From assembly GCA_017558825.1 (NCBI GenBank), contig JAFYTO010000011.1, positions 62,001 to 126,000 of the forward strand: DNA of 64,000 bases. The letters run 5' to 3'. The stretch is from Clostridia bacterium. Its GTDB lineage: Bacteria > Bacillota > Clostridia > Christensenellales > Borkfalkiaceae. This document shows positions 20,763-42,371 of the stretch, in pieces (within the stretch, counting starts at the first letter, position 1; every line of letters begins with the position of its first letter). The translations under genes were made by a program, and so were the position numbers. The notes beneath the pieces are model-generated. The model searched no databases, had not been told where the DNA came from, and saw only the letters and a program-made list of their open reading frames with translations.

Positions 20763-20791
20763 TTGCATAATGGCACTTTTTTTGATATAAT
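20763..20791 (+). promoter_or_regulatory. promoter of the ten-gene ATPase/helicase operon
   Basis: TTGCAT (20763-20768), 17-bp spacer, perfect TATAAT (20786-20791). This gives a leader of ~55 nt to the ATG at 20854. It is the only convincing promoter I see before the terminator at 42343. Confidence 0.7.
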
Positions 20792-20853
20792 TTGACATAT
20801 TGAGCTTGTCTATACTTTTACATTACAACATTGCAATGCTCATAGAGGAAAAG

Positions 20854-22794
20854 ATGGAAAAAGTTTTAAACATAGCGCTAGACCTTGGCGGAGATACTAT
20901 AAAAATAGCATTTGCTTTTGATGATGATTTTTTAAAAACTACTTATGGCAAATTTTCGTGCAAAAGCAAACTTACTCAAATAGCTATTCCTGCAATAGGT
21001 TATTATAGCGAAGATGAAGACAAATGGTATTATGGTGACCAAATTGCAAAACAAAGCGATTCTTTTGTAACAGTAGTCAAAATAAAAAGTTTAATATCGC
21101 TACTTACAAAGCAAGAGAGTAGCATTTGGCAAAGAAATAAAAACTATTACTATAACGAGCATTATTTTCCAAAATTCTACTTTCCAGTAAGAAAGAGAAT
21201 GTTAGATGATTTTGGAAAGATGGTTGCCAGCGATATGACTTTTACTTGTGAGCGATATACTCCACAAGAAATATGCAAAGATTTTTTTAATTATATAAAA
21301 GACCTTGTTGACAAAAGATGCGCCGAATTAAATATGGCTCGTGGGACAGAATTTTCTTCTTATAGAATTTCCGTAATACACCCGTCTAGCGTGGGAGATG
21401 AATATTTACACGAACTCTCTTATTTAGTTCAAAAGTCTTTTGGCGTAAAGCCTTTTAAAATTATAAATTCAACAAAAGCCCTTTCTATTTATGCGTTCCA
21501 TAGAGGTGCTGTTAGAAATAACGAAAGTTTCTTAGTTTTTGATATGGGCGAAGAAGAAATTTCAGTTACTAGAACAGGATTTATAAATAATCAAATATTC
21601 GTTGATGGTGTAGAAGGGCATAACGAGCCTTTGCAATTAGGCGGTATAGACGTTGACCAGGCTATAGTTGAAAATATTTACAAGTCAATTGCTGATAGGG
21701 AAACAATAGGCTCTCCTTCTGCCGGAAAAAAAGGGCATATCTTTGAACGTGGCGTTTTTGGCAAACAATATTTGTTAATGAAGGACGTAAAAAAAGCCAA
21801 GGTGATTCTAGGCAAGCCTTTAAAGGAAGATAGTTTTTTTAGTAATGGTGTTCCAGTTACGCTTGGCTGGGAGTTGTTTATTCAAAAAAGATTTACTAGG
21901 GAAGACTTTAAAAATAGTATGGGTTACCCAACTAATTCAGGCGTTGCTGAAAAGATTTGTGACTATATTATAAAAGAGGTTACTAGACCTATAAATCATG
22001 ACGTAAAAAAGATATTTTTATCAGGTGGAATCGCGGAAACTTATTGCCTAGTTGAATATATTTGCGAACAACTTAAATATAGGGCTCCAGATGTTAAGGT
22101 TTGCACTTTTGACAACTGTGTTTATGAAGGCGACGATTTTACAATTCTTTCTCATGAAGACTCCGTTTTTGCCGCAGCGATAGGAGGCGCTATAGTTGCA
22201 CTTAAGAATATTGAGATTAAAACAATTCTTTCATTGTCTTATGCAACTTGGGCGATTATAGACAATATTAAATGCCTTTCAATTTTTGCAGAGCGTGGCG
22301 AAATAATTGACGGAGGAAGAAGATTTGTTAACAAGTATCACGTTGGACAGTATGGTGTTTTGGAAGGAGAAGAGTTGTTCTCAACTTATCTTTCAAAAGC
22401 CGATATAGCAAAGAACGTTGGTAAAGGGAAATGGAATTATACTGATAGCGGAGGCTTAATTATAGGCGAAGATAATACCGTAGAAAGAAGCAGGGCGCAT
22501 CGCGACTTTGATTTGAGAGTGGTTTCCGGCGGAAAAGACGGAAAAATAATTTTTAGGCACAATGGCAAGCAATGTAGAATTATAACGGATTATAAAATAG
22601 GTTTTGAAGAAGGTATTATGGTAGATTCAAAAGGCGTTGCCACTCCTATTTTGAGAAATATAACTCCCAAGGGGGTATTAGTGAGAATACTTTACTTAAA
22701 CGTTTCAGGTTACAGTAGTGAAAATGTGGTTGATGCATCTAGCATAGAGATTGTTCCAGTGGGGCTTAAGGGCTTTGTAACGGTTCAAGATTAA
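20854..22794 (+). CDS. HSP70/actin-fold ATPase with a divergent C-terminus (operon gene 1)
   Basis: The 646-residue protein has the three ATP-binding signatures of the HSP70/actin superfamily: phosphate-1 LDLGGDTIKIAF (residues ~8-19), phosphate-2 VFDMGEEEISVTR around Asp230, and the adenosine motif LSGGIAET (from ~389). A large insertion lies between phosphate-1 and phosphate-2. After ~residue 475 there is a beta-rich segment (YATWAIIDNIK, later GGKDGKIIFRHNGK) that takes the place of the DnaK substrate-binding domain but is not recognisably homologous. I chose ATG 20854 (after AGAGGAAAAG) over upstream starts that lack a ribosome binding site. It is the first gene of the operon. It may act as a chaperone-like or filament-forming switch for the other components; its partners are not known. 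Confidence 0.75.
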   Translation: MEKVLNIALDLGGDTIKIAFAFDDDFLKTTYGKFSCKSKLTQIAIPAIGYYSEDEDKWYYGDQIAKQSDSFVTVVKIKSLISLLTKQESSIWQRNKNYYYNEHYFPKFYFPVRKRMLDDFGKMVASDMTFTCERYTPQEICKDFFNYIKDLVDKRCAELNMARGTEFSSYRISVIHPSSVGDEYLHELSYLVQKSFGVKPFKIINSTKALSIYAFHRGAVRNNESFLVFDMGEEEISVTRTGFINNQIFVDGVEGHNEPLQLGGIDVDQAIVENIYKSIADRETIGSPSAGKKGHIFERGVFGKQYLLMKDVKKAKVILGKPLKEDSFFSNGVPVTLGWELFIQKRFTREDFKNSMGYPTNSGVAEKICDYIIKEVTRPINHDVKKIFLSGGIAETYCLVEYICEQLKYRAPDVKVCTFDNCVYEGDDFTILSHEDSVFAAAIGGAIVALKNIEIKTILSLSYATWAIIDNIKCLSIFAERGEIIDGGRRFVNKYHVGQYGVLEGEELFSTYLSKADIAKNVGKGKWNYTDSGGLIIGEDNTVERSRAHRDFDLRVVSGGKDGKIIFRHNGKQCRIITDYKIGFEEGIMVDSKGVATPILRNITPKGVLVRILYLNVSGYSSENVVDASSIEIVPVGLKGFVTVQD

Positions 22795-22814
22795 ACTTAT
22801 AGGAGAGACATATT

Positions 22815-25652
22815 ATGAAAAATTCTGAACTTAAAATTATGTTTGTGCACGGTGCTTTTGACAAAGAAATGGAAAGAGCAGGGTTGCACGACTGCAAAAA
22901 ATATACAAAACATATTGCTCAAATGAATAAATTGGCAGAAGTTCTTGATAGGTATGATGAGTTTGCCTCATTGACTTTATCTCCAGATGATTATGCACAA
23001 AAAAATGGTAATAAATATGGTATTCCTAAAAAAAGTTTTCATATGGGAGATGAAAGATTATTGCCTCATCAACTAAAGGCAACGCAAGCATTTTTAAAAG
23101 ACCTTCGTGGCTTTGGTTTACTAGCAGACGTTGTTGGTAGCGGTAAAACTTACGAGGCTTGCGCCGTTCTTAGTGAACTTGCGGCAAAAGGAAAAATTTC
23201 TTCTGTTCTTATAATTGTTCCGTCTCAAGTTTATAACACTTGGATTTTCGTGTTAGAAACTATGTTTGGAATGGGAGAAGGTAAACTTAAAACTTTAGGC
23301 AAAGAGTTTGATGACTCATTATTTGTTTGTGGAAGTGATGGCATAAGGCGTCCTACAGTTCCAATTATTGTAAAAACTGAAGACTTTGTTTATTGGAATG
23401 ATTACGACATAAAAAACGTTTTGTTCGATATGGTTGTTGTTGACGAGGCGCATAATCTTTGCGGAGAAACCGGAGTATCAGCAAAATCAATGATGCTTCT
23501 TTCTTACATGATGAAAATTAAAAAAGAAGCAAAAAAGACTTATTGTATTTTACTTTCTGCAACTCCGCATTCAGGCAACTTAGATCAAATGTTCCGTTTA
23601 TGGTATTTTATTCGCTGTAAAGGTGGCTTGCCTTCTGATTTTGAAGAAAAAGACGATAAAGACAGAACAGAAGAATATAGAAATGAAAAAAAATATTATA
23701 GAGAACATATTTGCCGTGGAGCAACTACGGTTATGGACTTTATTAATAATGTAAAAGAAATAGAGGTTGTAGAAAATTTTGCAAACGAATATCAAAAATA
23801 TGCTACTACCTATAAAAAAGTAAGCATTGATGATTTTGATAATCTCTTAGACGGCGAGAAGAAAGATGCCATTGATTGTTTCTTAGAAGACAATGAAAAC
23901 ATTAAGGCAAAAATTATGAAAAACATAGCAAGCGCATATCATAATGGCGTATTGCGCTCTATCATGATTCGTCAGCCAAATGACAGAATAAGAAAAGGAA
24001 AGAAAATCGAGAATATTTTCTTTTTTCCGGCATCTAATACATCAAACGAAATTAAAGCTAAAGGTTTAAATGGAAAAGACATTGTTTTAAACGTTTCTAA
24101 CATGAACGGAGAAAACGCTATTAATACAGTAGACGCTTCCTACTCTATTGAAAATTACGTGGAAGAAAATCGTGGACATAGGTCTTATCACCTTGCTTAT
24201 GCAGATTTGTTTTTTGAAAGAGACGGTTTACTTCACTCTTTTGGTTTAAATGACGACTGCTTCCAAAAACGTAACGCAATGGCATATTATTGGAATCAAT
24301 TGAGAGGAAGTCATTTGACGGCAAATGCAAACTCTTCTAATGAAGTTTCAATTAAATTTTCTCCTGTCTATGAAAGTAACGTATTTGACAAGAAAGTTGA
24401 AAAATTAAAAGAAATTTTAACAAAACATGCAAATTCTAGAGTAATAGTATTTTTTGATTACGATGTAAAAAAGAGCGAGCGCTGTTACGAGCAAGTTTTA
24501 GAGTTATTAAAAGAAGATTCTAACTTTAAAGATAGAATTATTGTAGGCGACTCTTCAGATAAATCTGTAACTGAGAAGAAATTCAATGAAAAAGAAAATG
24601 CTATTTTAGTTGTTACAACTAGCGCATTTACAGAGGGCGCCAACTTACAAAAAAGTAATATAATTGTAAACTTCCAAATAACTCCTAACCCTCTAGGTAT
24701 GGAACAAAGTATAGGTCGTATTTTCCGTTTGGGTCAAGAAAATGACGTAATAGTTTATTCTTTAGCCGACATGTGTAAATTGGAAGGTTTTGTTCTTATG
24801 TATTTTACGCGTATAGGACTTATGACAAGCAACAGCGGCGATGCAGCAATTATAGCGGGCAGTAATAATGACAACATGGTTACTGTTAGATGTCCGGCAT
24901 GTGGCAAAGTTAAGTTGATGTCTAAAGAAGACTATGATACGTGCAAGAAAAATGATTTGGACGAGATATATTGTAACGACAATGAAAAATGTAGGCAAGA
25001 AAGTGAACGCGGCATGCTTATGCTTGAAATTAACGGTAATGAAATCAAGTGTGAGAATTGCGGAAACGTTATAAAACGCCAAAATTCAGATAATGGCGGG
25101 CAATATTTTTGCTTATCTGTAAATAGTACGGGAAGCGGTGTTATGTGCAACGAGGGCTCTAAAGGCGACAGATTGTTGTATTGCAGAAAAATATGTGCAA
25201 TATCACATTGCGAGCGTTTTATTTCAGGGCCAATGCAAGACAAGTGTGAAGCGCTTAACTACTATAAAGAAAATCCTATGGCTTCAGATGCAGATTTAGG
25301 AGAACTTTGCGATAATTGTAAGAGCGCGTCAAAATGCTATGCAAAATGCCGCATTAAAGATAAGCCGGAAGGCATTGAAGGTTGTAAAAACTGTGCGCAA
25401 GCAACTTGTTTTCCAAAACCTCACGTTATCGAATTTGATAACAAGTGGGAGGCTGAATGCCCTGTATGTGCGGCAAACGGCGTAAAGGGAATATTAAGAC
25501 CTATCGTTGCTAGAACGTTTGAAACATATATACGTTCTGCTTATGATTATCAACAAGATGGTGGCAGGTCTTTTTGCGATAATTTAATGAAAGAGGCAAA
25601 TAAAGTTGCTCAAATTCAAGCAATTTTAGCAAACGACAAGATAGAGGACTAG
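22815..25652 (+). CDS. SNF2-type DEAH helicase with Cys-rich zinc-binding tail (operon gene 2)
   Basis: The 945-residue protein contains a complete SF2 SNF2-like motor: LLPHQLKA (Q-like), Walker A ADVVGSGKT (Lys111), DEAH (210-213), motif III LLSATPHSGN, and a helicase-C half with TSAFTEGANLQ (motif V) and EQSIGRIFRLGQ (motif VI, ~630-641). From ~residue 690 to the end there are more than twenty Cys in pairs such as CPACGK, CENCG, CDNCKSASKC, CKNC and CPVC, which must form several zinc ribbons. SNF2 motors translocate on duplex DNA or remodel protein-DNA complexes; the ribbons would give nucleic-acid or protein specificity. RBS AGGAGA, 20 nt after gene 1 and 4 nt before gene 3. Confidence 0.85.
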   Translation: MKNSELKIMFVHGAFDKEMERAGLHDCKKYTKHIAQMNKLAEVLDRYDEFASLTLSPDDYAQKNGNKYGIPKKSFHMGDERLLPHQLKATQAFLKDLRGFGLLADVVGSGKTYEACAVLSELAAKGKISSVLIIVPSQVYNTWIFVLETMFGMGEGKLKTLGKEFDDSLFVCGSDGIRRPTVPIIVKTEDFVYWNDYDIKNVLFDMVVVDEAHNLCGETGVSAKSMMLLSYMMKIKKEAKKTYCILLSATPHSGNLDQMFRLWYFIRCKGGLPSDFEEKDDKDRTEEYRNEKKYYREHICRGATTVMDFINNVKEIEVVENFANEYQKYATTYKKVSIDDFDNLLDGEKKDAIDCFLEDNENIKAKIMKNIASAYHNGVLRSIMIRQPNDRIRKGKKIENIFFFPASNTSNEIKAKGLNGKDIVLNVSNMNGENAINTVDASYSIENYVEENRGHRSYHLAYADLFFERDGLLHSFGLNDDCFQKRNAMAYYWNQLRGSHLTANANSSNEVSIKFSPVYESNVFDKKVEKLKEILTKHANSRVIVFFDYDVKKSERCYEQVLELLKEDSNFKDRIIVGDSSDKSVTEKKFNEKENAILVVTTSAFTEGANLQKSNIIVNFQITPNPLGMEQSIGRIFRLGQENDVIVYSLADMCKLEGFVLMYFTRIGLMTSNSGDAAIIAGSNNDNMVTVRCPACGKVKLMSKEDYDTCKKNDLDEIYCNDNEKCRQESERGMLMLEINGNEIKCENCGNVIKRQNSDNGGQYFCLSVNSTGSGVMCNEGSKGDRLLYCRKICAISHCERFISGPMQDKCEALNYYKENPMASDADLGELCDNCKSASKCYAKCRIKDKPEGIEGCKNCAQATCFPKPHVIEFDNKWEAECPVCAANGVKGILRPIVARTFETYIRSAYDYQQDGGRSFCDNLMKEANKVAQIQAILANDKIED

Positions 25653-25656
25653 TCTA

Positions 25657-27294
25657 ATGGCGAAGAATAGAATTTTTGTAAATAAAGAATATGAAAAAGC
25701 TTTTAATAGTATTTGCGAACTTATTAAAGGCGATTGTTTTAGAGGCTTAGGCTGGAAAGTTAATGGTGATATTATAGATGATGGTATTTATGAATATCAA
25801 TTAACGTCTGTTTATAGTCAAGAAAGAGAAAAGGTTAAGCATGGTTTTTCTGATGACGGAGCAACGTGGTTTAAAGCGTTGCGCGGTCAAGAAGTAAACA
25901 ATAATGATGCCATATGGACTTCTTTTATAGAAACTGCTGGGGTTGAATATCATAAAAGATACTCAGTTGTGGAATATCAGCAAAAAAATAGAACAAGAGA
26001 TGAAAAAGAGAAAGAGTTTGAAAACAATAAAAAAACAATAGAACAGTTTACTGAACTCTTCTTTCCAGAATTTCATCAAAGAACAGAGCTTAAAGAAGTT
26101 AGTGGAGAAGGCATAAAGGAAGATATTTACGGCGTTTCAATGAGGATTGAACTTTCTGGTGGAACGGGTGCTTCTTTGCCGGTTCTTTGTAAAGTATATT
26201 TTTCAAAATCTGGCAGAACAGTTACGCCTATAACAAGCTTTGCAGCTCAAGAAATAGACTTAAATCTTTCAGAAATTATTCCAGAAGAATCTATTGAAGA
26301 AAGTGTACTGTCTGGAGAAAGTGCAATTGACACAACGTTAAACGCTGTTGACAGGCTTATAAATAATAGCGAATCTAATTTTGCTGATTATCTTTGCTAT
26401 AGTGACAAGTCAGACAAATTGGCTGTTAAAAATCTTTTAGCTCAATTATCTCACAACGAAATCAAGTTAGAGTGTCAAAGAGTTGACGTGTTATATATTA
26501 CTCATATTGCTACAACCACTTTCTTATATGATGTGTTCCATATGGGAAAACCCTTGTTTAGATTAAGCACAGGTTTAAATAAATCTTTAACGCTTTCATG
26601 CCTAAACTGTGGTGCTGAAGAAAAGTTGGTAGAGTCTAACGTTATTACTTATGAAAAAAATGGTGTAGAACAAGTTGCAATGTTATCACTTGGTTTGAAA
26701 AACTTTGGTCTCACTGAAGAACAAATAGAAGACATTAAAAACTTTAGTAAACTTAAAGAGCACTACCTACACGTTTCCTGCCCACTTGCTCACAGAGGGC
26801 AAGATTGTTCTACTGTTAAATGTAAGAGTCAACTTTTTGATGCTGATAACAGTAGTGGAGTTTTATATAAATGTAAAGATTGTCCTTATCCAGAAATAGT
26901 GTATACTTCTTTAACGGGAGAAAAGAAATATACACCGTTTATGATTTTTGCGAAGGACGCTATGACGTTGTTAGATGCAAAATCAGAGGAACTTAAGCCT
27001 GTAAAATGTAATAACTGTGGTAGATATTTTACTAGTAGGGCAATGAAAAATAAAAATTGCACAATTTGCAGTGAGGCAAATGTTAGCATGGGAACGGAAT
27101 CTCAAAAAGCCCTTTATAAAAAGTACAAAAACCTTTTACCAATAGGAGCAAGAGTATTAGTAAAAAATTCTACAAAATTCTGTTTAGAAGATGAAGAAGT
27201 TATAATTTTTGTTGTTGGCACAAAACAATATATGCTTAATAAATTAAACGTAAAAGAAAACGGCTACTTTGATAAGCCAACTAGAATAAGATAA
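25657..27294 (+). CDS. zinc-ribbon protein of unknown function (operon gene 3)
   Basis: I do not recognise the 545-residue product as a named family. The N-terminal ~290 residues form an acidic alpha/beta region; the segment TRDEKEKEFENNKKTIEQF is a likely coiled helix. The C-terminal half has several Cys clusters: SCLNCGAE (~314), a C-x8-C-x4-C group in the HVSCPLAHRGQDC block (~375), CKDCPYPE (~407) and CNNCGRYF plus CTIC (~451-472). A final beta-rich ~60 residues ends the chain. The style of these clusters matches the tail of gene 2, so the two may form one nucleic-acid-binding surface. There is only a 4-nt gap to gene 2. No signal peptide or membrane segment is present. Confidence 0.6.
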   Translation: MAKNRIFVNKEYEKAFNSICELIKGDCFRGLGWKVNGDIIDDGIYEYQLTSVYSQEREKVKHGFSDDGATWFKALRGQEVNNNDAIWTSFIETAGVEYHKRYSVVEYQQKNRTRDEKEKEFENNKKTIEQFTELFFPEFHQRTELKEVSGEGIKEDIYGVSMRIELSGGTGASLPVLCKVYFSKSGRTVTPITSFAAQEIDLNLSEIIPEESIEESVLSGESAIDTTLNAVDRLINNSESNFADYLCYSDKSDKLAVKNLLAQLSHNEIKLECQRVDVLYITHIATTTFLYDVFHMGKPLFRLSTGLNKSLTLSCLNCGAEEKLVESNVITYEKNGVEQVAMLSLGLKNFGLTEEQIEDIKNFSKLKEHYLHVSCPLAHRGQDCSTVKCKSQLFDADNSSGVLYKCKDCPYPEIVYTSLTGEKKYTPFMIFAKDAMTLLDAKSEELKPVKCNNCGRYFTSRAMKNKNCTICSEANVSMGTESQKALYKKYKNLLPIGARVLVKNSTKFCLEDEEVIIFVVGTKQYMLNKLNVKENGYFDKPTRIR

Positions 27295-27311
27295 GGAGGG
27301 AAGGTATACAA

Positions 27312-30300
27312 ATGAAAAGTTCAGTTTTTCAAAATAAGATAAAAAACAGTAAAATTCTTTTATACGTTACCTCTATATTGTTATTAGTAACAGACGTAAT
27401 TCTTGCCGTTGCACTTGGTATTGGCGGAGAGTTATTTAATAGTGGAATTTGTGTTTTTCTTACTGTTATATTTGACGCATTATTAATAGTGGCAATTTGT
27501 TTTTCTAATTTTAGAGTTAGTTATAGCAAGAAATTGCCTATCGCATACATAATAGCAACGCTTTTAATAGACGTTATAATTGCCCCTATTCTTTCTAAGT
27601 CAATTTTTACAATTGTTGCATTTTTATTGTTTGCACTTTTTAGAGTGGCGGCTATTATTGCTATTTTATTCGGGCTTTTAGGCAGTGTTGCACGTGCAAA
27701 ATATATTAAGTTCTTAACGTTTATATTTACAGTAGCATTTGCGGGATTTTCAGTTTTTTATGTTTTCAACGTTTTCCCAAACGGCTTTTATGGACAAGGA
27801 AAAGTTGGTATTAGAAACATTGCTTACGAATATAACGAAGAAGAAGACGGCTACGTTGCAAAACTTCTAAATGGAAATAGAGGCAACACAATTGTTATTG
27901 CAAATGAATTTAATGGTAAAAAGGTTGTAGGTATAGATGCAGGCATATTTAACAGTGATGAGGTTGAATTTGTCAATCTTGAGTGTGATGCCGGATTCTT
28001 TATTGAAAATCATACAATTCTTCAAAACATAAACAAAAAGCAAGTTATTACAATAGACTATACAAAAATAGATGAGGCAAGAAAGTCTATATATTTGAAT
28101 TCAAAGGGCAAAACAACATCATTAGCGCAAGCTTATGTTGCTTTTGCAAACCAGATTACGCCAAGCGGTCTTGAAAAAAATCAAGTTTATATAAATTTTG
28201 ACTACTCGTATGCTGATTTAGAATACGCTAAATTTGAAACGATAGATACATGGATTGGTGAAAAGGGTGAGGTATTTGACCTTGTAGCGCATGCTGGGCA
28301 TCTCCCTTACGTAAAAGAATATGATTTAGAAAATGAGACCTTCTTAAAAGAAAACTATGAGAACGGTGGCAAAGTTATAAACGCTCTTGTTTATAACAAT
28401 CAAGTAATTATAGGAAGCGAAGTAAATGAATCTATGCCAAACACTGTTATTTCATTTGAACATATACGAAAGGTAGTTGTTCAAGAAGATAACGATAGTG
28501 TTTACAATTTATTGACTAATGACGTTGCGTTTTCAAACGGCGGAAATGCCAGATATATTTTAGAAACGGATCCATTCAACATGTTAGGAGATATAACGCA
28601 AAGGGAGGGTTTTACAGTTTCATTTAAATATAAAACAACAGAAAATGGCCAAACAAAAACATTTAATGAGCTTAGTAAAATTCTTACTGGTGACGTGTTT
28701 ATAGTTCCTGAATGGAGTCTTGATTTGCCTAAGGTTTCGGCAATAGAGAAAAACCAAAATAATTTTGTATATGGCGATACTTTAACTCTTTCGGCATTAG
28801 CTCAACATGATGCTGGCGATAAGTTTGAGTATAGGTGGGTTAAAGATGGTAAAGATAGTGTAATTTCATACGAATCTAGCTATGAAAAGAATAACGTAAA
28901 ACCTTTAACAGATTCAGGCACGTATAAATTATTTGTAACTGCAACACCTTCTTGCACTTCGCTTACGGCAACAGCAACAGTATCAGTAGATGTTGCGGTA
29001 AATAAAAAGTTGTTAAATTTCACCTGGAGCAACACGGAAACTGCAGTTTATTCGGGCAATTACCAAACTATAACAGCTTCTTATAACGAAAATGACGTTA
29101 TTAATTCGGACACTATTGAGGGTTATATTGATACAAGCATTGATAGCAAAGGAGGGTTTACGTCTACTCATAAAGATGCGGGAACTTATAATTATGCAAT
29201 AACGTTAAAAGGTGATTGTAAAGATTTATACACGGTTAACGCAAACAATCAATTTTATACTTGGACAATTAAACCTTACGAAATTGAAGTTAATTGGGAC
29301 GAGGAAGAGTATACTTATAATAATGAAATTCAAATGCCTGATATTGAACCTATAAAAGGAATAGGGCTTGAAAAAGACACGTACTTAAGTTATAGCGTAA
29401 CCAAATATATTGGCGACTGTAAAAGTGCGATTAATCATACTGTAAAAATTATATTGGATAATTCAATTCAAGCAGGCAATTATAAAATAACGAATTATAC
29501 AAAAGATTACAAGATTAATAAAAAAGTAATTTCTTTAACTTGGTCAAGTAATTTATTTACTTACAACGCAAAGTCGCAAAAGCCTACTGCTACTGCAAAT
29601 GACGTATGCTTAAAGGATACGTGTTTGGTAAGCGTTTCAGGAGAAAAGGTTGCGGTTGGAAACTACGTTGCCGAAGCAACGTTGGTTAACACTAACTACA
29701 CTATAGAAGATGGTTATACAACTAAAGAGTTTACAATCGAGCCTAAAAAAGTTACGCTTATTTGGAATAAAAATTCATTTGTTTATTCATCAAGGCAGCA
29801 AGGTCCAACGGCAACCGCTGTTGGAACATGTAGTGGAGACGTTGTAGGTTTTGACTACAGCGGATATGAAAAAGATGTTGGAATGTATACTGCATATGCT
29901 ACAATTAAAAACTTGAACTATGAAATTTCCGGTTCAAATTATTACGATTATAGTATTGAGCAAAAAGAAGTAACGTTGAGATGGGCAAAAACCACAACTA
30001 CTTATAGTGGAGAAGAACAAAAACCTACGGCAACCGTTAACAGCGTATATGCTGGAGACAACTGTTTTGCCATTATAGAATTAGATGGTTTAGGTATAAA
30101 CGCTGGCACGTATAATGCAACTGCAACGTTGAATAACAGTAACTACAAGTTGGCATCTACTTCTAGCTCCACGTCTTTCAATATTACAAAAAAATCGCTT
30201 ACTATAACTGCAAATTCTCACGCGATTACTTATGGTGATACCCCTTCAAATGCGGGTATAACATATTCAAAAGATTTTGTGAATGGCGAAGACTATACAG

Positions 30301-33872: not shown

Positions 33873-35828
33873 ATGATTATTCCTGAGGCAATAGACTACG
33901 TTAATACTTTATATTATAAAAGCATAGATGTTCAAACTCTTAGTGAAGGGGTTGAAATTTTGCAAGACATATTAACAAATAAGCAACCACGTGCAAATTT
34001 TAAAAAAAATGCGGAAGCTCTTTTATATCGTCTTACAGCTAAAATCCTTGCCTTAAAATATTTTGATGAAGGGTATTTAGAGGAAGATTATATTATACTT
34101 AAACAGCAAATTGCCGAATTTATTGTTAAGGTTGAGCAAGAAGGGTATTTAAAAACAGTTACGTTATTAAAAAATCTTTTAGAAGTTGCTGAAAGTGTAC
34201 ATTCGGTAATGGATGGCTTAGATGCTGAAATTTGTCGCATGCAAGATGAAAATGGAAACCCTACAACCTCCGACCAAATAGAGATTGAAAAATTTGCAAT
34301 TTATTTTAGAAGCAAAGCAGAAGCATTGTCTAACGTAAAAGACACGGCAACGCTTTTTGGCGAAAACGTGGCCATGAAAGATATTAAGGCCTGTGCCATA
34401 AAAGACGTTTTAGACGTTGCTATATGGGCTGAAAATATATTAAAAGCTTCTACTTCAATGGAAAAAGAGAAATTCTTTAACGAGAATTTGCAGTTGCTTG
34501 AAGAACAAGATGGGCTTAAAATTTTTAAATATTATCCTCCTATTTTAGAAAAGGAGAAAAATGCATCTAAAGTAACGGTTATTATGTCTCCGTTTATAGA
34601 TGAAGTTATTTTGTATGCTCGTGCTTATGAAAAAGAAAGGGGTATTAGTTTTTCAATAATTAACGCTTCTGCATTTATAGGTAAAGCAGATAGTTTTATT
34701 AAGGAAGTATTTGATAGCTTAGGCGAAAAAAATTCGAATATTATAATCACTGGAATTCACTTTTACAATTATCAAAACAAAAGTGCGTTAGTAGAAAACG
34801 TTTTATATTATTCAAAACAGTTTGGCGAAGTGTTTTTAATTGATGAATACGGCGATAGAAGTATTTACGATTTTGCGTACGATATAATAAAACAAAAAGA
34901 AGATTTATCTTATAGTGATATTTCATATAGATATTTAACTATGCCAAACTACAATTTTGTTGTTTCCGAAATGGAAGAGATTGGCATGATAAACGCTTCC
35001 GAATATGCTTATATAAAAAATAAAATGGCGTTTATGGGTTACGTTGGGCTCAACGTTGCGTATTCTTTATTTATGCAAGAAAGGCAATGGAAAGATGATG
35101 TTATAGATATTTCTAGGCGCCACGAGGCTGAATGTCAAACATATCTAAGAAGAATACCATCACAACAACAATTTATTGACGTAGGTTGGAAGCATTTAGA
35201 GCTTAGTTATAACGCTCGCTCAAGAAAAGAGAATTTTGATTACGATTCTATAAAAGACGTTAATATTAACAATATTAAAAAAATACTATCTTCTTCAAGC
35301 ACTCTTTTTGCAAAATGTGGACTTATAGTAAAATATTGCGTTTTGGCCGGAGATGACGTTTCTTCTTGGGAAAGAGTTGAAAAGGGAGTAAAAGAGGGGC
35401 GAATTAATAATGCAACGAAGTTAGTAGCGCATCTTTTAGATTGCGAAAATGAGCCTGAAGTAAAAATAATTTCATTGGACGAGTGGGAATCAAAAGGCGC
35501 AGGAGCTCTTTGTTGCGATGGCGGAAAACGCATATTATACAGGGAAGATTGTTGTAATGACGTTGCTTGGTTAATGGATGCCATTTGCCACGAATGTTAT
35601 CACTCGTTTCAACACACTTTACAACATAGAGGCTGGCAAAAATGGCATTGGATGGAGCTTGGCGTAACAGAATATCGCGTTCCTGAATGGGACTATAATT
35701 TTGGTAAATACAAATCAGCAGGGTCGCAAGCGTACGCTATACAAGTTGTAGAAAGCGATGCTAGAACATTTGCAAACGACTGTCTTATGCAAGGAGAAGA
35801 GAGTTGGCAAACTGTTGATTGGGAGTAG
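33873..35828 (+). CDS. HExxH zincin-like protein (operon gene 7)
   Basis: In the 651-residue product the C-terminal ~100 residues look like a zinc metallopeptidase: ICHECYHSFQHTL, with His573, Glu574 and His577 as HExxH, then VVESDARTFAND, where Glu627 would be the third ligand. This ESDAR-like glutamate ~50 residues downstream resembles the E..A..FA pattern of ImmA/IrrE-like zincins. The preceding ~530 residues are unassigned: a helical N-terminus and an alpha/beta middle region with VTVIMSPFIDEVILYARAYE and NIIITGIHFYNY. If active, it could cleave a repressor or a phage or host protein to trigger the system. The stop lies 2 nt before the preferred start of gene 8. Confidence 0.65.
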   Translation: MIIPEAIDYVNTLYYKSIDVQTLSEGVEILQDILTNKQPRANFKKNAEALLYRLTAKILALKYFDEGYLEEDYIILKQQIAEFIVKVEQEGYLKTVTLLKNLLEVAESVHSVMDGLDAEICRMQDENGNPTTSDQIEIEKFAIYFRSKAEALSNVKDTATLFGENVAMKDIKACAIKDVLDVAIWAENILKASTSMEKEKFFNENLQLLEEQDGLKIFKYYPPILEKEKNASKVTVIMSPFIDEVILYARAYEKERGISFSIINASAFIGKADSFIKEVFDSLGEKNSNIIITGIHFYNYQNKSALVENVLYYSKQFGEVFLIDEYGDRSIYDFAYDIIKQKEDLSYSDISYRYLTMPNYNFVVSEMEEIGMINASEYAYIKNKMAFMGYVGLNVAYSLFMQERQWKDDVIDISRRHEAECQTYLRRIPSQQQFIDVGWKHLELSYNARSRKENFDYDSIKDVNINNIKKILSSSSTLFAKCGLIVKYCVLAGDDVSSWERVEKGVKEGRINNATKLVAHLLDCENEPEVKIISLDEWESKGAGALCCDGGKRILYREDCCNDVAWLMDAICHECYHSFQHTLQHRGWQKWHWMELGVTEYRVPEWDYNFGKYKSAGSQAYAIQVVESDARTFANDCLMQGEESWQTVDWE

Positions 35829-35830
35829 GC

Positions 35831-38800
35831 ATGAATAAAATTAGTGAAAATATAGAGGCGTTTACAATAGACCTTTTACATATAAACGATATTTCAAGCA
35901 ATAAACTGATTGATTTATATGCTGGAGATTTAAGTAAAACCTTTTTTATTTCTCACCCAACAAGAGATAATTTAAGTAAATACGTTTTAGAAATTATTTC
36001 TGCCAGAATAGGAAAAGTGGGAAATACCGTATTATTGCAAAGTGCAATTGCAAATAAAAGTGAGCAAATTTTAGGTAAAGATATAAATGATTTAGCTTGG
36101 CAAGATGCTAAAGGCAATACTGATGCCGTTGCACTTCATAAATACATTGAAAACGTATATAAAGAGTTAGACCTTAGGGGAAACAATCCATTATTTTTTA
36201 GCGTGGGCGCAATAACGTGGAAAGTTGCTAGCAAAGAATATTCCATTAAAGAAGTTACATCTCCACTTTTACTTTTTCCTATAAAATTTATTCGCTCCAC
36301 AAGCAAAACAACTCCAATTTATATAGAATTTGTTTGTGATGACATCTATATAAATCCTTGTTTTTTGGCGGTCTTGCGACAAATGGCAGGAGATAAAATT
36401 GTTGAAGATTTTCCACATCCCAACCAAAGCGTGTGCGACGTAGATTGCCCTATTAACATTGATTATTTAGGCAATGGCGAAGCATATTTTGCAAAGGTGG
36501 AGGAGTACGTTAGTTCGCAATGTAGATCAGATATTAGTAGTGATACTACGTTTAAATTTGATAAAAATATTGTTGCAATATCTCAATATAATCACGATGA
36601 ATTGTGTATGTATTATGATATAAAGCGCAATAAAGAAAAGATATATTCTCACCCTCTTATAAATAGAATTTTTAGCAAGGGTGAGCCTTACCAAGAAGTT
36701 GATTATTCAAAAACAATACCTCAGTTTATAATGCCTAGAGATAGCGTTCAAGAACGTATTGTTAAAAGGGTTGTTGCAGGGCAGTCTTTAATAGTTAAAG
36801 GCCCTCCAGGAACGGGTAAAACGGTTACTATTACTAACTTAATAGCTTCCTTATTAGCGCAAAATAAAAAAATTCTTTTGTCATCTCAAAAGTCTGCGGC
36901 TATGTTTGAAGTGTATGCTAAATTGCCACCGTCTATTCGCAAGTTTGTAATGCTTTTAGATAGTGAAACAGAGGCTCAAGCTTCAAAACTTAACGTTGTT
37001 GATGTAAAAAAAGAATTCAATCAACTTTTAAGCGATAGAAAAAATCACACTTTTTCGGCTGACAAATACGATGATTATGAATGTGGCAATAGGGAAATTG
37101 CTTCTACTATTGCAACTATAAAAAACTACCGAGAACTTATGTTTGACAACAAAGATGTTGTGGGCAGGAGTTATTATTCGGCGTTAGACACTATATGTAA
37201 ATATGATATAGACCCAATCTTGTTTATGAATTCTAATGATGCCTGCAATATGACGTCTAAAGAATTTTCATATTATGCAAATTTGGTAAACGAGGCTGGC
37301 GAATGGCTTGATAAGGCAGCTTTAGACCACGAACTTATAAAAAGTCCTTGGTATCCAATAAACGGCAGTTTAGACGGCGTAGAAATTGAGAAGGTTGTTG
37401 AATATAACGGCAAGCTTTCTAATGCTATAAGTGAACTTGTTGCCGAATGTGAAGGCGTTGAAGGCTTACAGAGTAAATGGTATAAAAATATCTCAATTTC
37501 AGTTCTTGATTGCGTTTTAGAACAGCCTTTAGATGAAGGGCTTCTTAAAACCGTTTCAAACATTGATAATGTAGAGTTGTTAAAATCGGTATGCACAGTA
37601 TATGAAGAATATTTAGCAACGCAAAGTGCTTCAACAGAAATTTCAAATCCGCCAGCTGAAGCTATTGAAAAATATGCTAAAGAGTTAGGGTTATGTAGAA
37701 TTGATGGAGATTTAAAAAAGTCGCAATTCCTAACATTCTACGATAATTCAAACGTAATAGAATTGCTATCAGGGAAAAGTCAATTAGAAGCAATTACTAG
37801 CGCCATTAATTTTGTTGAAGATATAGAGGTTAAGAAGAAGGAATGTTTAGATGAATTCTATTCAATTTTTAGCCCCGATATTTCTAAAGAAAATTTATCA
37901 CTTATAGAATGCTCTTTTAAAATATTTAACGCTTACGCTAAAAAAGAGGATTGTATCAAACCAAAGCTTTTAGATTTTAAAACAAAAAAAGCTTATGCGA
38001 TATTAAATAAGTTGGGTTATGGCGAAGAGATTTCATTTAAAGATGTTGTAAAAGGCGTTTGCTTATTTAACAACGTAATAAATTTAGATAAAAATTTAGA
38101 TGGTCTTAAAGCCAAATTATCTTCTCAATTTAAAATAAAATTAAACGCTCAGCAAATTGAAGCGTTATTCAAGTTTGTAGATAGTTGTAAGAAATCCGAA
38201 TTAGATATAGCTAATTGCGTTAAAGATTTTATTGACTGTAAAGATACGATTTTTAATGCAATTAAAGAGTGTAATAGCGATGTTGATTTTACTATTAAAG
38301 ACTTACTTAAAACGTATTTAAAAACAGGAGCGTTTGAAAATCTTGCAGCCGAAACACAACGTTTTGCAGACGCCAATAATATTTTAATAGAAGGCAATAG
38401 CGTTGAAAGTTTTGCAAAAGCCGTATATGGAACAAGCAAAATTTTTGAAAGTTCAGCAGTAGGAAACACTATAGAAGAAGTGCTAAGAAACGGCGGTATA
38501 ATCTATAATGCCAAAAACAAATTAAAGCCTTTACTATTTAAAATAAAAGCATTATTATTGGAATTTGAAAAAAATTGTTTTGCATCATTCTATACTGTCA
38601 AAAACGAAAAATGCTTACTTAAAGAACTAGAACTAATAGTTAAAGAAGGGCAAGATAGAAGTGTGTGCAATGCACTTTGTCAATATTTTAAAGTAGTTAA
38701 ATGTTCACATGAAGCGTGTTCATTAGAACGTTTCTTTAGGCCTTTTGAAACAGGATTAAGGGAAAAAGGCAAATATAGCTATAAAAGTATTTTTGAATTT

Positions 38801-40423
38801 TCAGTCAATTGGCTTGCTGTTGAAAACAAGAAAAACTCTATGGGCGAACTTAGAAACGGCTTAAGAGATAAAATTTCTTACGAGTTAAACGATTGGAAAA
38901 ACGCAATTTCTCAAATTGATAAGGCAACACTTTCTATAATAGAAGATCAATGCATGGCAAAAATTAATTATAATGACCAAGACTTCAATTTTCTTAAAGC
39001 AGAAAAGCAGGGCGGTCAAAGTCTAAGAAGATTTTTTAAGGAAAATGCCAAAGCTATTCTTAAACTTAAAAAATGCTTTATTTTGTCCCCTTCAACTGCA
39101 AGTGTATTTTTTACAAAAGAAGAATTTAATGATTTTGATATCGTTATTGTTGACGAGGCCAGTCAATTAGAACCAACCTCTATTTTGCCTGTACTTTTTA
39201 GGGCCAAACAAGTTGTACTAATTGGAGACGAGTGGCAAATGCCACCAATTAAACACTTTGCTAATCGTGTAGAAAAGCGTATTGTAGATAGTGAGGGAGA
39301 GGTTAAAATACTTAGCCCAAACACTTCGGTGCTTGGTTTGGCACTTGATAATTGTGCTTTTCCTGTAGAGCAGTTCATTTGTCATTACAGAAGTAAGGCG
39401 GAATCATTAATTGCCTTTTCTCAGGAAAAATTTTATCCAAATATGAGAACTTTTCCTGCTAGAGTTCCTAAAGCGGAAGGGTTAGGGTTTAAAGATATTT
39501 ACGTGCCTGACGGATGTTGCGATGGCGGTGTTAACGAAAAAGAAGCTATAGCGGTTGTGAAACAGCTTAAGCTACATTTTGACACTTATTATGATGAAAG
39601 CACCAAATCTTTAAATGGAAGTTCCGTTGGCGTAGTTGCTTTTGGCAAAGAGCAAAAAGACTATATTGAAAGTTTGGTTGCAAAAGATACAGACCTTGCT
39701 TCAAAAATTCAAAAGGCAATTGAAAATTTTGGAGATTTGCCAGAGAAATTAATCTTTTTTAAAACAATTGAAAGTGTTCAAGGTCAAGAGGTTGAGCATC
39801 TTATACTTTCTCTTACTTATGGAAAAAACAAAGAAGGCAAAGTTGTGCAATCGTTTGGCGAGTTAAATAGAGGTTTTAATGAAGACAAGTTAGGGCAATG
39901 TATATTTAACGTTGCCGTTACAAGAGCAAAAAGCTCTATAGCAGTAATCCACTCTATTTTAGCTGAAGAAATTAAATTAGAATCGATTGATTTTATTGGA
40001 AAATACTTATCTATCGTTAACAAGTTTGGCAGTGATGACAATAGAGAACAATGGGTAGGGAAAAAGGTTGATGAAACAACTGGATTTATAAGACAAGTTG
40101 CTAACTTTATAATTGAAAGTGGTGTAGATGAAAAAAGAATAGTAATTGACTATGGCGTAAATCCAACGTCTATAAAAATACCAATAGTTATTCTTTCTGC
40201 AGATTTGACTGAAGCTGAACTTGGATTGTGGTGTGAAACGGAAGTCTTAGAAAATTCTAATTATTTTGATATTAACGTTAGATATGTTGACAGTTTAGTT
40301 GATAGAGGTTGGAATATTCACAAAATATTTATTCACGATTGGGTTGACAACAGCAAATCTGAAAAAGAAGCGCTAAAAAAAATATTAAAAAAATATGTAA
40401 ATATAGAAAACAGTGAGGTGTAA
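35831..40423 (+). CDS. DUF4011/UPF1-like superfamily 1 helicase, 1530 aa (operon gene 8)
   Basis: The N-terminal ~230 residues resemble DUF4011: NNPLFFSVGAITW and TSPLLLFPIKFIRS. An SF1 motor follows: Walker A KGPPGTGKTVTITN (Gly324 onward), DEASQ (1108-1112), LIGDEWQMPP (motif III), TIESVQGQEVEHLILSLTYG (motif V) and FNVAVTRAKSSI (motif VI). Between motifs I and II there are ~780 residues of mostly helical insert, far more than in UPF1 or DNA2. The C-terminus has DRGWNIHKIFIHDW, as found at the end of DUF3320-type helicases. Large helicases of this kind occur in several bacterial defence loci. Preferred ATG at 35831 follows GGGAG; a TTG at 35819 overlapping gene 7 is the alternative. Confidence 0.8.
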   Translation: MNKISENIEAFTIDLLHINDISSNKLIDLYAGDLSKTFFISHPTRDNLSKYVLEIISARIGKVGNTVLLQSAIANKSEQILGKDINDLAWQDAKGNTDAVALHKYIENVYKELDLRGNNPLFFSVGAITWKVASKEYSIKEVTSPLLLFPIKFIRSTSKTTPIYIEFVCDDIYINPCFLAVLRQMAGDKIVEDFPHPNQSVCDVDCPINIDYLGNGEAYFAKVEEYVSSQCRSDISSDTTFKFDKNIVAISQYNHDELCMYYDIKRNKEKIYSHPLINRIFSKGEPYQEVDYSKTIPQFIMPRDSVQERIVKRVVAGQSLIVKGPPGTGKTVTITNLIASLLAQNKKILLSSQKSAAMFEVYAKLPPSIRKFVMLLDSETEAQASKLNVVDVKKEFNQLLSDRKNHTFSADKYDDYECGNREIASTIATIKNYRELMFDNKDVVGRSYYSALDTICKYDIDPILFMNSNDACNMTSKEFSYYANLVNEAGEWLDKAALDHELIKSPWYPINGSLDGVEIEKVVEYNGKLSNAISELVAECEGVEGLQSKWYKNISISVLDCVLEQPLDEGLLKTVSNIDNVELLKSVCTVYEEYLATQSASTEISNPPAEAIEKYAKELGLCRIDGDLKKSQFLTFYDNSNVIELLSGKSQLEAITSAINFVEDIEVKKKECLDEFYSIFSPDISKENLSLIECSFKIFNAYAKKEDCIKPKLLDFKTKKAYAILNKLGYGEEISFKDVVKGVCLFNNVINLDKNLDGLKAKLSSQFKIKLNAQQIEALFKFVDSCKKSELDIANCVKDFIDCKDTIFNAIKECNSDVDFTIKDLLKTYLKTGAFENLAAETQRFADANNILIEGNSVESFAKAVYGTSKIFESSAVGNTIEEVLRNGGIIYNAKNKLKPLLFKIKALLLEFEKNCFASFYTVKNEKCLLKELELIVKEGQDRSVCNALCQYFKVVKCSHEACSLERFFRPFETGLREKGKYSYKSIFEFSVNWLAVENKKNSMGELRNGLRDKISYELNDWKNAISQIDKATLSIIEDQCMAKINYNDQDFNFLKAEKQGGQSLRRFFKENAKAILKLKKCFILSPSTASVFFTKEEFNDFDIVIVDEASQLEPTSILPVLFRAKQVVLIGDEWQMPPIKHFANRVEKRIVDSEGEVKILSPNTSVLGLALDNCAFPVEQFICHYRSKAESLIAFSQEKFYPNMRTFPARVPKAEGLGFKDIYVPDGCCDGGVNEKEAIAVVKQLKLHFDTYYDESTKSLNGSSVGVVAFGKEQKDYIESLVAKDTDLASKIQKAIENFGDLPEKLIFFKTIESVQGQEVEHLILSLTYGKNKEGKVVQSFGELNRGFNEDKLGQCIFNVAVTRAKSSIAVIHSILAEEIKLESIDFIGKYLSIVNKFGSDDNREQWVGKKVDETTGFIRQVANFIIESGVDEKRIVIDYGVNPTSIKIPIVILSADLTEAELGLWCETEVLENSNYFDINVRYVDSLVDRGWNIHKIFIHDWVDNSKSEKEALKKILKKYVNIENSEV

Positions 40424-40424
40424 T

Positions 40425-41123
40425 ATGGCTGATAAAGAAACTAGATTTAGGTCGGACAGTTTAAATTTATTAAACGAAGAAATTGTTGCAGAGCAACAAC
40501 AAAGGGAAAAAGAAAAAATAAGCAAAGCAAGAGAACAAAGTAAAATTGATTTTAGAATCAAGCAAGAACAGTTACTCAATCAGCTTATAGAACTTGAGCA
40601 AGAATATGGCGAAGACTATTATTTAGTGGAAATGCTTTCAACTTTCTATGAGGTTTCCGTTGAAATGGAAAACGTTATGAAGTCAATGGAATCTGTAAAC
40701 ATGGCAATGGAATGTATTACAGAAGCTTTAAGTTTTTTAGATTCCACTATTCAGTTTGACCAAAAATTAATGGAGCAATCTAACAGACAAAGCTATTCTT
40801 TTATTGCGCGTTTTAGATTAAGAATGCAAATGCGTAGAACAAGGAAGAATAATATTGGTAGAATGAAAGCCATGGTAGATGGCCTTATGTTTAAATATAG
40901 AATGATGGACGATATGGTTAAGTCATTAAAGAAATTTGCCCTTACTATGAGCAAGAGCTTTAAAAAGGTTGGCAAAAAGAAAAAGGGCGCCGCCAACGTT
41001 GGTCCAACAGAGGCTCAAAAAAGAATTGCGCAAAGAAAAGCAGAACTTGGAGTTGCCAATAATGCTACTATTACGGAATCTACGGGCACTGATTCTAGTG
41101 GCAATTATGATGACGTATTATAA
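40425..41123 (+). CDS. small coiled-coil protein, 232 aa (operon gene 9)
   Basis: The product is highly charged and helical. Residues ~20-55 (EEIVAEQQQREKEKISKARE) form a coiled coil; a Met-rich helix (~80-115, YEVSVEMENVMKSMESVNMA) and a strongly basic segment (RFRLRMQMRRTRKNN) follow; the C-terminus is a low-complexity, Ser/Thr/Asp tail. It has no enzyme motif. It starts at ATG 40425, 1 nt after the gene 8 stop, and sits directly before the Vps4-like ATPase, which makes it a candidate substrate or adaptor of that ATPase. I find no family name for it. Confidence 0.6.
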   Translation: MADKETRFRSDSLNLLNEEIVAEQQQREKEKISKAREQSKIDFRIKQEQLLNQLIELEQEYGEDYYLVEMLSTFYEVSVEMENVMKSMESVNMAMECITEALSFLDSTIQFDQKLMEQSNRQSYSFIARFRLRMQMRRTRKNNIGRMKAMVDGLMFKYRMMDDMVKSLKKFALTMSKSFKKVGKKKKGAANVGPTEAQKRIAQRKAELGVANNATITESTGTDSSGNYDDVL

Positions 41124-41144
41124 TTTTAATTGTGGAGAAAGCTT

Positions 41145-42332
41145 ATGAGCGGAATAGGAAAGAAAGGGTATGAAAAAACAACTTCAGACAATAAGAGTTT
41201 AGAACAGCTTAAAAAAGAGTTTGATGAGATAATGGCAAAAATACGTACTCTTATTGGGGCGCGTAAAGACAAAAATCAAATGACTCCTGAAGAAAAAAGA
41301 ACTTTAAGAACAGAGTATAATAATGCTGCCAAAATAGCCAAAAAAATATACGAGCGCGCAGAAAATGACGATGCGTTAGAAGAAAAATATAAAGATTTGC
41401 ATAAAAGGTGCTTAGACAAAGCAGAAAGTTATGGATCTATAATGAAAAGAGAAGCTCCAAAAACCACAATGGAAGATATAAAGGGGCAAGAAGACGTTAA
41501 GAACTTAATAAAGTCGTTTGCTTTTATGGCAGACAATCCAGATATTTTAAAATATTATAAAATTCAAGGTGGCTTAGGTCTTTTAATGTACGGAGCGCCT
41601 GGAACAGGTAAAACAATGTTTGCTGAAGCTATTGCTAATAAAATGCAACTTCCACTCTTTGTTGTTACACCAGCAGATATTTTTAAGTCATACGTAGGCG
41701 AATCTGAACAGGCAGTAAAACAACTTTTCCAAGATATTGAAAGTTGTGAAGAGGGCGCAATTCTTTTTGTAGATGAATGTGAATCTATTTTCAGTAAAAG
41801 AACAAACGATACAAAGGATTATAAAGCAGCGGTTACTACAGAATTATTGCAAAGAATGAATGGTTTTGGCGTTGACGGCTCTAAGCGTATTTTAATTGGC
41901 GCAACTAACCGCCCAGACCAAATAGATCCAGCATATTTAAGATATAAAAGATTTTCTCATATGGTGCATATTACTCCACCAGATGCTACGGCAAGGCGTT
42001 CTATTGTAGAAAGCAAATTGAACGGCATTCCTTTAGCAGATGACGTTACTATTGACGATATTATGTTTATGATGAGTAAAGCTCAATCTACTTACGTAGA
42101 CGATTATGGCAAAATGGCGGGAGGAGGCTCTTATTCTTCAGCAGATATATGCGGCATCATTGAAGAAGCATGTCGTCTTGCTCTTGAGAAATTAATGGAA
42201 AAAAATTCTACAACTCCAATTCCTGTAGGCAGAGAAATGTTTGAAAAGGCTATTGCAAAAAATCCGCCAAGTATCAGTAGAGAAGTGCTGGAAACGTATA
42301 ATAAATTTAGAGAATCTATAAACGACAAGTAA
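41145..42332 (+). CDS. Vps4/katanin-like classic AAA ATPase (operon gene 10)
   Basis: The 395-residue protein has ~110 residues of helices at its N-terminus (LEQLKKEFDEIMAKIRTL and onward) followed by one AAA domain: Walker A GAPGTGKT (150-157), pore-loop region DIFKSYVGESE, Walker B ILFVDECES (Asp210, Glu211) and the second region of homology ATNRPDQIDPAYLRYKRF with its arginine fingers. The AAA domain and the helical N-terminus together recall Vps4, spastin or katanin, whose MIT domains bind helical filament proteins; membership in the MIT family itself is not shown. It is the last gene before the operon terminator. Start ATG 41145 follows GTGGAG; a TTG at 41130 is unlikely. Confidence 0.85.
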   Translation: MSGIGKKGYEKTTSDNKSLEQLKKEFDEIMAKIRTLIGARKDKNQMTPEEKRTLRTEYNNAAKIAKKIYERAENDDALEEKYKDLHKRCLDKAESYGSIMKREAPKTTMEDIKGQEDVKNLIKSFAFMADNPDILKYYKIQGGLGLLMYGAPGTGKTMFAEAIANKMQLPLFVVTPADIFKSYVGESEQAVKQLFQDIESCEEGAILFVDECESIFSKRTNDTKDYKAAVTTELLQRMNGFGVDGSKRILIGATNRPDQIDPAYLRYKRFSHMVHITPPDATARRSIVESKLNGIPLADDVTIDDIMFMMSKAQSTYVDDYGKMAGGGSYSSADICGIIEEACRLALEKLMEKNSTTPIPVGREMFEKAIAKNPPSISREVLETYNKFRESINDK

Positions 42333-42342
42333 TAAAGAAATA

Positions 42343-42371
42343 AAAAGTCTGGTATTTAGCGCCAGACTTTT
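42343..42371. terminator. bidirectional terminator ending the ten-gene operon
   Basis: A 10-bp stem AAAAGTCTGG/CCAGACTTTT (42343-42352, 42362-42371) followed by TTTATATT; the left arm's A's serve the converging minus-strand channel gene. Confidence 0.88.

Follow-up and report, generated by a model that had tools for sequence, protein, structure and literature searches.

The stretch of DNA analysed here, hereafter referred to as the window, comprises 64,000 nucleotides (nt) from a Clostridia bacterium of the family Borkfalkiaceae (assembly GCA_017558825.1, contig JAFYTO010000011.1, positions 62,001 to 126,000 of the forward strand). It contains a block of ten long open reading frames (ORFs), g1 to g10, which are all encoded on the plus strand between positions 20800 and 42332. 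Together with a promoter-like site and an intrinsic terminator, the whole unit extends from 20763 to 42372 and is about 21.5 kb long (Table 1). The starts given for g1, g6, g8, g9, and g10 are those with the best Shine-Dalgarno sequence, and with these starts the genes are separated, in order from g1 to g10, by gaps of 20, 4, 17, 24, 1, 8, 2, 1, and 21 nt. The promoter-like site was found by eye and scores below the threshold of a promoter scan; in G302, a genome from another family, a perfect TTGACA-17-TATAAT is located immediately 5' of g1 of the block. ORFs and Shine-Dalgarno starts bear out the anatomy described in an earlier note on this DNA, namely ten co-directional genes with one promoter, one terminator, and gaps of 1-24 nt. 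Since another family has the same genes with their order unchanged, the proteins being 24-64% identical, and further families have them as well, the ten-gene set is more than a chance assembly.

Table 1. Features of the ten-gene block (positions within the window)
Feature	Position	Strand	Remarks
Promoter-like site	20763..20791	+	TTGCAT-17-TATAAT, extended -10 (TGA)
g1, HSP70/actin-fold ATPase, chaperone-like switch	20854..22794	+	
g2, RapA/DrmD/BrxH-type SNF2 translocase, Cys-rich zinc C-terminus	22815..25652	+	
g3, zinc-knuckle protein of no known family	25657..27294	+	
g4, N-terminal membrane region and extracellular MBG/Ig-like stalk	27312..31178	+	
g5, zinc ribbon and Sel1/TPR-like repeats, adaptor	31203..32363	+	
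g6, long coiled-coil protein	32365..33864	+	ORF opens at 32338 (TTG)
g7, gluzincin-type peptidase	33873..35828	+	
g8, DUF4011/UPF1-type superfamily 1 helicase with C-terminal MTES_1575 restriction endonuclease (REase) domain	35831..40423	+	
g9, basic helical-hairpin protein, flexible linker	40425..41123	+	
g10, classical AAA ATPase with Vps4_C helix and helical N-domain	41145..42332	+	
Intrinsic (Rho-independent) terminator	42342..42372	+	12 pairs

Both the SNF2 and the Helicase_C domain of g2 score above the Pfam cut-offs, and its motor motifs are intact and invariant or nearly so among homologues. Across the first RecA lobe, g2 is 26% identical to RapA from Salmonella, and according to PADLOC and NCBIfam profiles its relatives include the defence SNF2 proteins BrxH, DrmD, DpdE, and HmaA. 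Many conserved cysteine and histidine residues are found downstream of the motor, and RapA_C was not detected by sequence in either g2 or g3. The predicted model of g3 (pLDDT 82) had no Foldseek match at E ≤ 0.001. In a second structural alignment, its top four PDB matches were all RapA, covering residues 710-967 in the C-terminal part of that protein, with Z-scores of 5.3-5.9 (next structure, 3.9) and root-mean-square deviations of 4.1-7.7, values that are too low to be safe alone. As a comparison of the g3 profile with one RapA sequence gave no match, the idea of a RapA that is split over g2 and g3 leans on this weak structural similarity; it is treated as a lead because g2, a RapA relative, is located directly upstream of g3.

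The peptidase g7 has a HECYH sequence with a distal glutamate. This HExxH motif (residues 573-577) and Glu627, which follows 50 residues on, are invariant in an alignment of 68 sequences, and the peptidase site is thus intact. No Pfam family scores above threshold for g7, and an assignment as SprT-like was rejected, as the match was found in three of 15 members with an E-value of 0.02 and is too weak to use. A role of g7 as a protease trigger, as proposed in the earlier note, is plausible. The gene is tandemly duplicated in genome G041 (joined coordinates 18429-22256 of loci L006/L007) and in locus L078 (9980-13816), and the second copy is more diverged.

The helicase g8 contains AAA_11/AAA_12 and DUF4011 domains above the Pfam cut-offs and has intact motor motifs; its nearest defence models are PDC-S37, Hhe, and ProA, with E-values from 1e-111 to 1e-53. 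In its MTES_1575 domain, the catalytic aspartate is replaced by Pro1455, which is 100% conserved in an alignment of 60 sequences. Whereas true MTES_1575 domains have FRIDIAI...VECDG, g8 has (R/K)IP followed by (W/Y/L)CE or similar, a comparison that rests on the handful of references that aligned (e.g. L173, L179, L183, L184, and L188), about half of those fetched having been read on the wrong strand and having failed to do so. Every g8 homologue that has a residue at the aspartate position of RID has proline there, and the glutamate of ECDG is also lost. An active nuclease in g8 as the effector of the block was therefore rejected, and because of the replaced aspartate the domain presumably binds without cutting. 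As this is the sole nuclease fold in the block, a nucleic-acid-cutting step is doubtful.

In g10, the AAA domain scores above the Pfam cut-off, and the Walker A and B motifs and arginine fingers are invariant or nearly so, so that the catalytic residues are complete. Vps4_C (PF09336) narrowly exceeds its cut-off in the window protein (21.7 vs 21.3 bits) and was detected in 6 of 14 homologues. The N-terminal region is conserved in length and pattern and has no Pfam MIT match, and the defence ATPase IetA is a relative according to an NCBIfam profile. The neighbouring g9 is predicted to form a hairpin (pLDDT 75) and ends with a conserved acidic (I)DD(I/V) motif. Its model had no significant Foldseek match; structural alignment gave I-BAR (Z 6.7), VIPP1 (5.1), Asgard ESCRT-IIIB (4.9), and CHMP2A-CHMP3 (4.4), and unrelated helical proteins match the model as well as, or better than, ESCRT-III and VIPP1.

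With 14 bits against Pfam HSP70, g1 remains below the cut-off of 20.6. Across homologues it keeps the phosphate-1, LGGxDxD, and SGG motifs, but the phosphate-2 loop is degenerate, with FDMGEEEIS instead of DLGGGT and thus without GGT, and Pfam and the alignment of homologues did not yield the complete nucleotide-binding signatures of HSP70. The only protein of the block with predicted transmembrane segments is g4, none being predicted in the other nine. Its membrane region is located at the N-terminus and resolves into five segments in most homologues; it is followed by an ectodomain with MBG repeats above the Pfam cut-off, and the MBG/Ig-like part is highly variable in length (homologues of about 920-2226 amino acids (aa)). 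The function of a membrane-anchored outer sensor, which the earlier note had assigned to g4, is plausible. A zinc ribbon and Sel1-like repeats are combined in g5, and g6 is a coiled coil.

The distribution of the block was analysed with g3 and g7 as queries. Of 398 genomes sampled across the phylum, 397 had no match, the one exception being the genome of the window itself. Among the 396 genomes of an order-wide search, g3 matches 36 (31 strong) and g7 matches 19 (17 strong). In the window's relatives, g7 matches G002 and G041, and the latter has the complete set of ten in unchanged order, apart from the doubled g7. Mapping with hidden Markov models identified complete ten-gene blocks besides that of the window in G041, G363, G294, G159, G405, G299, G302, and G256; a ninth genome with the block, G338, has a contig starting inside g1, and the remaining mapped copies are interrupted by contig ends. 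Within one order, the block is found in eight families or more. In genome_contigs, an alignment query retrieved 48 loci with g7, where an earlier query with a single g7 protein had given none, and the order is the same in nearly all loci extending past g7. Carriers include metagenome-assembled genomes (MAGs) of Candidatus Borkfalkia, Alloclostridium, Protoclostridium, Limadaptatus, and Christensenella, and copies with a named source are largely from animal gut or faeces MAGs. Ten-gene-like blocks also occur in MAGs labelled Bacilli or Acholeplasmatales (L082, L091, L094, and L095; contigs of 18-238 kb), a hint of spread between classes that depends on these MAG labels.

Genomes that are positive for g3 and negative for g7 contain partial versions of the block and, judged from their gene content, the block is modular, with a core of g1-g5, a module of g6, g9, and g10, and an optional cassette of g7 and g8. 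Five genomes (G130, G147, G187, G222, and G264) have g1-g6, g9, and g10 without g7 and g8, and G354 has a divergent set that also lacks these two. In G038 and G244, the core is followed by genes unrelated to the block, which were named by reading the sequences as hrcA-grpE-dnaK and an ABC transporter, respectively. The order is rearranged in G335 (L145), where an enlarged g6-like gene (935 aa), g9, and g10 precede g1-g4, with unrelated genes interspersed. An obligate indivisibility of the block was rejected because of the versions without g7 and g8 and the core-only versions. Of the earlier view that the block travels as one unit, the conserved order thus stands, whereas g7 and g8 are absent in one genus and g1-g5 can occur as a core only; such copies look like cassette modularity rather than like independent genes. 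Extra partial copies of g10-, g9-, and g6-like genes are found in single loci, at L081 (7053-9108), L096 (16275-17630), and L070 (7241-9927), and suggest that modules can be duplicated.

Gain and loss are most clearly seen in a genus labelled g117, in which 10 of 20 genomes have the block. In five block-free members, the genes that flank the block in G302 and G405 are only about 0.5-0.6 kb apart without any trace of block genes. These empty sites hold one small ORF, which is also present beside the block of G302, and the missing segment amounts to about 21 kb. In G293 and G828, the same site is occupied by other genes, which take up about 4-5 kb (L168, 1540-6600; L169, reverse complement, 1390-5700), and the site can thus accept different inserts; by eye, these encode a glycosyltransferase and a two-component system, and a sigma factor-like protein and other small genes. 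A second, diverged lineage of the block (26-58% identical) is found at a different position in a further member, G829. The blocks of G302 and G405 occupy a common site; their g1, g2, g3, g5, and g10 are 73-85% identical and their g6-g9 are 43-61% identical, while the more distant G824, with 73% in g3 and 68% in g5, has 64-75% in g6-g9. Because g6-g9 are more diverged than the rest in G405 and are retained at 64-75% in the distant G824, they were apparently replaced in G405, although they may instead have diverged faster in this lineage. For the copy in the window, no clean empty site was found in the same-genus relatives compared, in which the flanks are not syntenic.

The genes flanking the block differ from family to family. 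In a tree of g2, there are nine changes of family label against a minimum of six, and starred branches divide two of the families; having been built quickly and with long branches, this tree is suggestive at most. We infer that the block has moved horizontally. The earlier expectation that the ten genes move as a block at differing chromosomal positions across Clostridia agrees with the nine other genomes and with flanks that differ between families: neither are the genes dispersed one by one, nor does the block occupy a single fixed core locus.

Substitution rates single out the surface stalk g4 as the fastest-evolving gene. In simple Nei-Gojobori estimates for close pairs, which are unreliable at a synonymous rate (dS) above about 1 (G130-G187), its ratio of nonsynonymous to synonymous rates (dN/dS) is the highest wherever computable, with 0.31-0.40 in four pairs from g117 and 0.25 and 0.13 in pairs from genus g88. 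It is followed in the g117 pairs by g7 (0.14-0.19), and the remaining genes range from 0.01 to 0.15.

Comparison with known systems revealed none that combines these parts. The earlier statement that the set matches no named system is therefore upheld for the resources searched, PADLOC 2023 and the open-access literature, while a recent name could exist. Nearest to the block come the type III CoCoNuTs, which are related to McrBC. CoCoNuT immune systems carry an HSP70-like protein, a UPF1-like helicase, an inactivated PD-(D/E)xK domain, and a p97-like AAA protein (PMC11090510). The block has the UPF1-like helicase with g8 and, weakly, the HSP70-like protein with g1; an HSP70-like protein with a degenerate ATP site, a UPF1-like superfamily 1 helicase, a coiled coil, an inactivated PD-(D/E)xK domain, and zinc ribbons are common to both. 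Some CoCoNuTs carry a p97-like SpoVK AAA ATPase, where the block has the Vps4/CDC48-like g10. In contrast to CoCoNuT, the block has no HEPN RNase and instead encodes the SNF2 protein, the peptidase, and the membrane stalk, and the CoCoNuT-defining McrB-like GTPase CnuB and McrC-like CnuC are absent from the Pfam, PADLOC, and NCBIfam hits of the ten proteins.

The SNF2 proteins of DISARM, ARMADA, BREX, and Dpd (DrmD, ArmA, BrxH, and DpdE) belong to the same broad RapA-type group as g2 (E-values of 1e-20 to 1e-30). However, g2 scores far below the curated NCBIfam cut-offs (DrmD, 96 vs 610 bits; DpdE, 92 vs 500), and no methyltransferase, YprA helicase, PLD, or PglZ gene was found in the block. 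The combination of a YprA/DrmA helicase and a methyltransferase with DrmD/BrxHII, as in DISARM and ARMADA, is thus reduced to a DrmD-like SNF2 protein below cut-off, and searches of the ten proteins with PADLOC, Pfam, and NCBIfam yielded neither PglZ nor BrxC nor PglX of BREX. The DUF4011 anti-phage proteins Hhe, ProA, and PDC-S37 are homologous to g8 across the helicase and the C-terminal REase region, but g8 is below the equivalog cut-offs (Hhe, 268 vs 2000 bits; ProA, 364 vs 1500), is part of a ten-gene operon, and has the proline in place of the catalytic aspartate. IetAS also differs, as g10 reaches 97.8 of 510 bits for IetA and the protease of the block is a zincin and not the serine protease IetS. 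As in ESCRT-III/Vps4 (Cdv) and PspA/Vipp1 systems, an AAA protein with Vps4_C is encoded beside a basic helical hairpin with a flexible tail and a conserved C-terminal motif; the hairpin has no sequence match to Snf7 or PspA, and an MIT domain was not detected in g10. With RapA, the SNF2 protein of RNA polymerase recycling, the block shares a homologous ATPase core in g2 and the resemblance of the g3 model, but its version would be encoded by two genes, zinc-rich, and membrane-associated. The GTPase/HSP70/tubulin and MoxR-vWA conflict systems (PMC7159879) are likewise large, multi-gene, and driven by nucleoside triphosphates (NTPs), with variable effectors and chaperone-like parts, although the MoxR-vWA core pair, TRAFAC GTPase, and tubulin genes were not found in the block with Pfam. 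An adjoining TPR/6-TM membrane protein has been described for bacterial Vps4-like AAA proteins (PMC11237479), a pairing that resembles g10 with g4 and g5.

Taken as a whole, these features are tentatively read as a new modular, membrane-tethered, NTP-driven conflict system that most likely acts against phages or mobile elements by remodelling and proteolysis, a reading in which our confidence falls somewhat short of even. A conflict system is favoured because of the clean-site presence and absence, the two lineages in one genus, the effector-like cassettes, the fast stalk, and the motor families shared with defence. In such a system, g4 would place the complex at the membrane with its variable outer stalk, and g2 with g3 would form a RapA-like translocase engaging nucleoprotein or transcription complexes of foreign origin. 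A threshold for recognition or assembly could be set by g1, the HSP70-like protein, together with the zinc/Sel1 protein g5, while g6 and g9 might polymerise or serve as scaffolds that the AAA protein g10 remodels via the tail of g9. Unwinding of RNA or single-stranded DNA is conceivable for g8, and g7 may cleave a protein, either the target or an autoinhibitor. The output would be the disassembly and proteolysis of invader complexes, or of a host factor, without cleavage of DNA.

Several observations weigh against this interpretation. None of the ten proteins has an active nuclease or a toxin domain that could be recognised, and the flanks of 14 other copies (87 proteins) mainly encode housekeeping Pfam families, which together call for caution. 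In the window, a tRNA-Gln gene is followed by genes for a Fic protein, an MmeI-type IIL restriction enzyme, and AbiH (12913-17997), and the block begins 2.8 kb beyond this small upstream defence island. The defence neighbourhood emphasised in the earlier note is thus real in the window, but as the flanks elsewhere are mostly housekeeping genes, the argument does not generalise and a defence-island location was rejected as a general rule. PADLOC hits at E ≤ 1e-15 among the 87 proteins, for which there is no matched background set, are scattered single members, some of them generic (E1-E2 cation ATPases). In one genus, most members (13 of 17 genomes) have retained the block, and the five copies inspected there lack g7 and g8. 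With dN/dS below 0.41 in every gene, all ten genes, g4 included, are under net purifying selection. Moreover, no vehicle of transfer is visible, since g7 had no relative in 2.9 million viral contigs and a search of plasmids and phages with g2 alone retrieved distant SNF2 proteins, none covering 80% of the query.

The main competing explanation, which we consider rather unlikely, is an accessory machine for envelope or transcription quality control. During stress, it would remove transcription-translation-insertion complexes stalled at the membrane of some gut lineages, with the RapA-like SNF2 protein, the UPF1-like helicase, HSP70, the CDC48/Vps4-like AAA protein, and the peptidase as its parts. 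It would account for the kinship of g2 with RapA, for the four RapA entries as the best fit of the g3 model among solved structures, for the resemblance of the motors to eukaryotic RNA and protein quality-control parts, and for the housekeeping flanks and the genus in which most members keep the block. However, it sits poorly with clean loss or gain at the species level, two diverged copies at different sites in one genus, cassette replacement, and a stalk that varies more than any intracellular part, and the match of g3 to RapA is weak and unseen by the sequence profile. Less probable still is a surface, appendage, or vesicle system in which ESCRT-III/Vps4-like g9 and g10 shed the adhesin-like stalk g4 and the nucleic-acid motors load DNA or RNA cargo. 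The membrane region and long MBG stalk of g4, Vps4_C on g10, and the hairpin of g9 with its C-terminal motif and middling matches to VIPP1 and ESCRT-III proteins fit this picture; nevertheless, I-BAR and unrelated helical proteins match g9 equally well or better, Foldseek found nothing significant, the block has no secretion gene, and in G038 and G244 the core occurs without adjacent g6, g9, and g10.

A contact-dependent or inter-strain antagonism, with the outer stalk recognising neighbouring cells or the animal host, would agree with the fastest divergence of g4 and with the origin of most named copies from animal guts or faeces. It is very improbable, as no toxin, immunity pair, or secretion channel was recognised and nine of the ten proteins have no transmembrane segment. 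Returning to the favoured conflict system, a more specific form is a nuclease-free defence in which a stalk-anchored split RapA (g2 and g3) captures transcription or entry complexes of the invader at the membrane, and the ESCRT-III/Vps4-like g9 and g10, the HSP70-like switch, and the zinc peptidase dismantle them. This detailed version is a long shot, ranking slightly behind the vesicle system; if true, bacteria would be using ESCRT-like machinery and RapA-type recycling of RNA polymerase for immunity. If the block is immune in a broader sense, gut Clostridia would have a strategy in which effector cassettes can be swapped and which relies on remodelling and proteolysis instead of cutting nucleic acids. 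If not, it would be a so far undescribed 21-kb membrane machine whose order is kept across at least eight families. The natural variants, i.e. core only, core with AAA module, full set, and cassette replacement, form a ready-made dissection series.

Downstream of the block, a protein of 619 aa is encoded on the minus strand (42408-44267), convergent with the block, and has no Pfam family at E 0.001. Further downstream, a gene on the plus strand (45886-47406) encodes a protein of 506 aa that has no Pfam match and adjoins a class-V aminotransferase.

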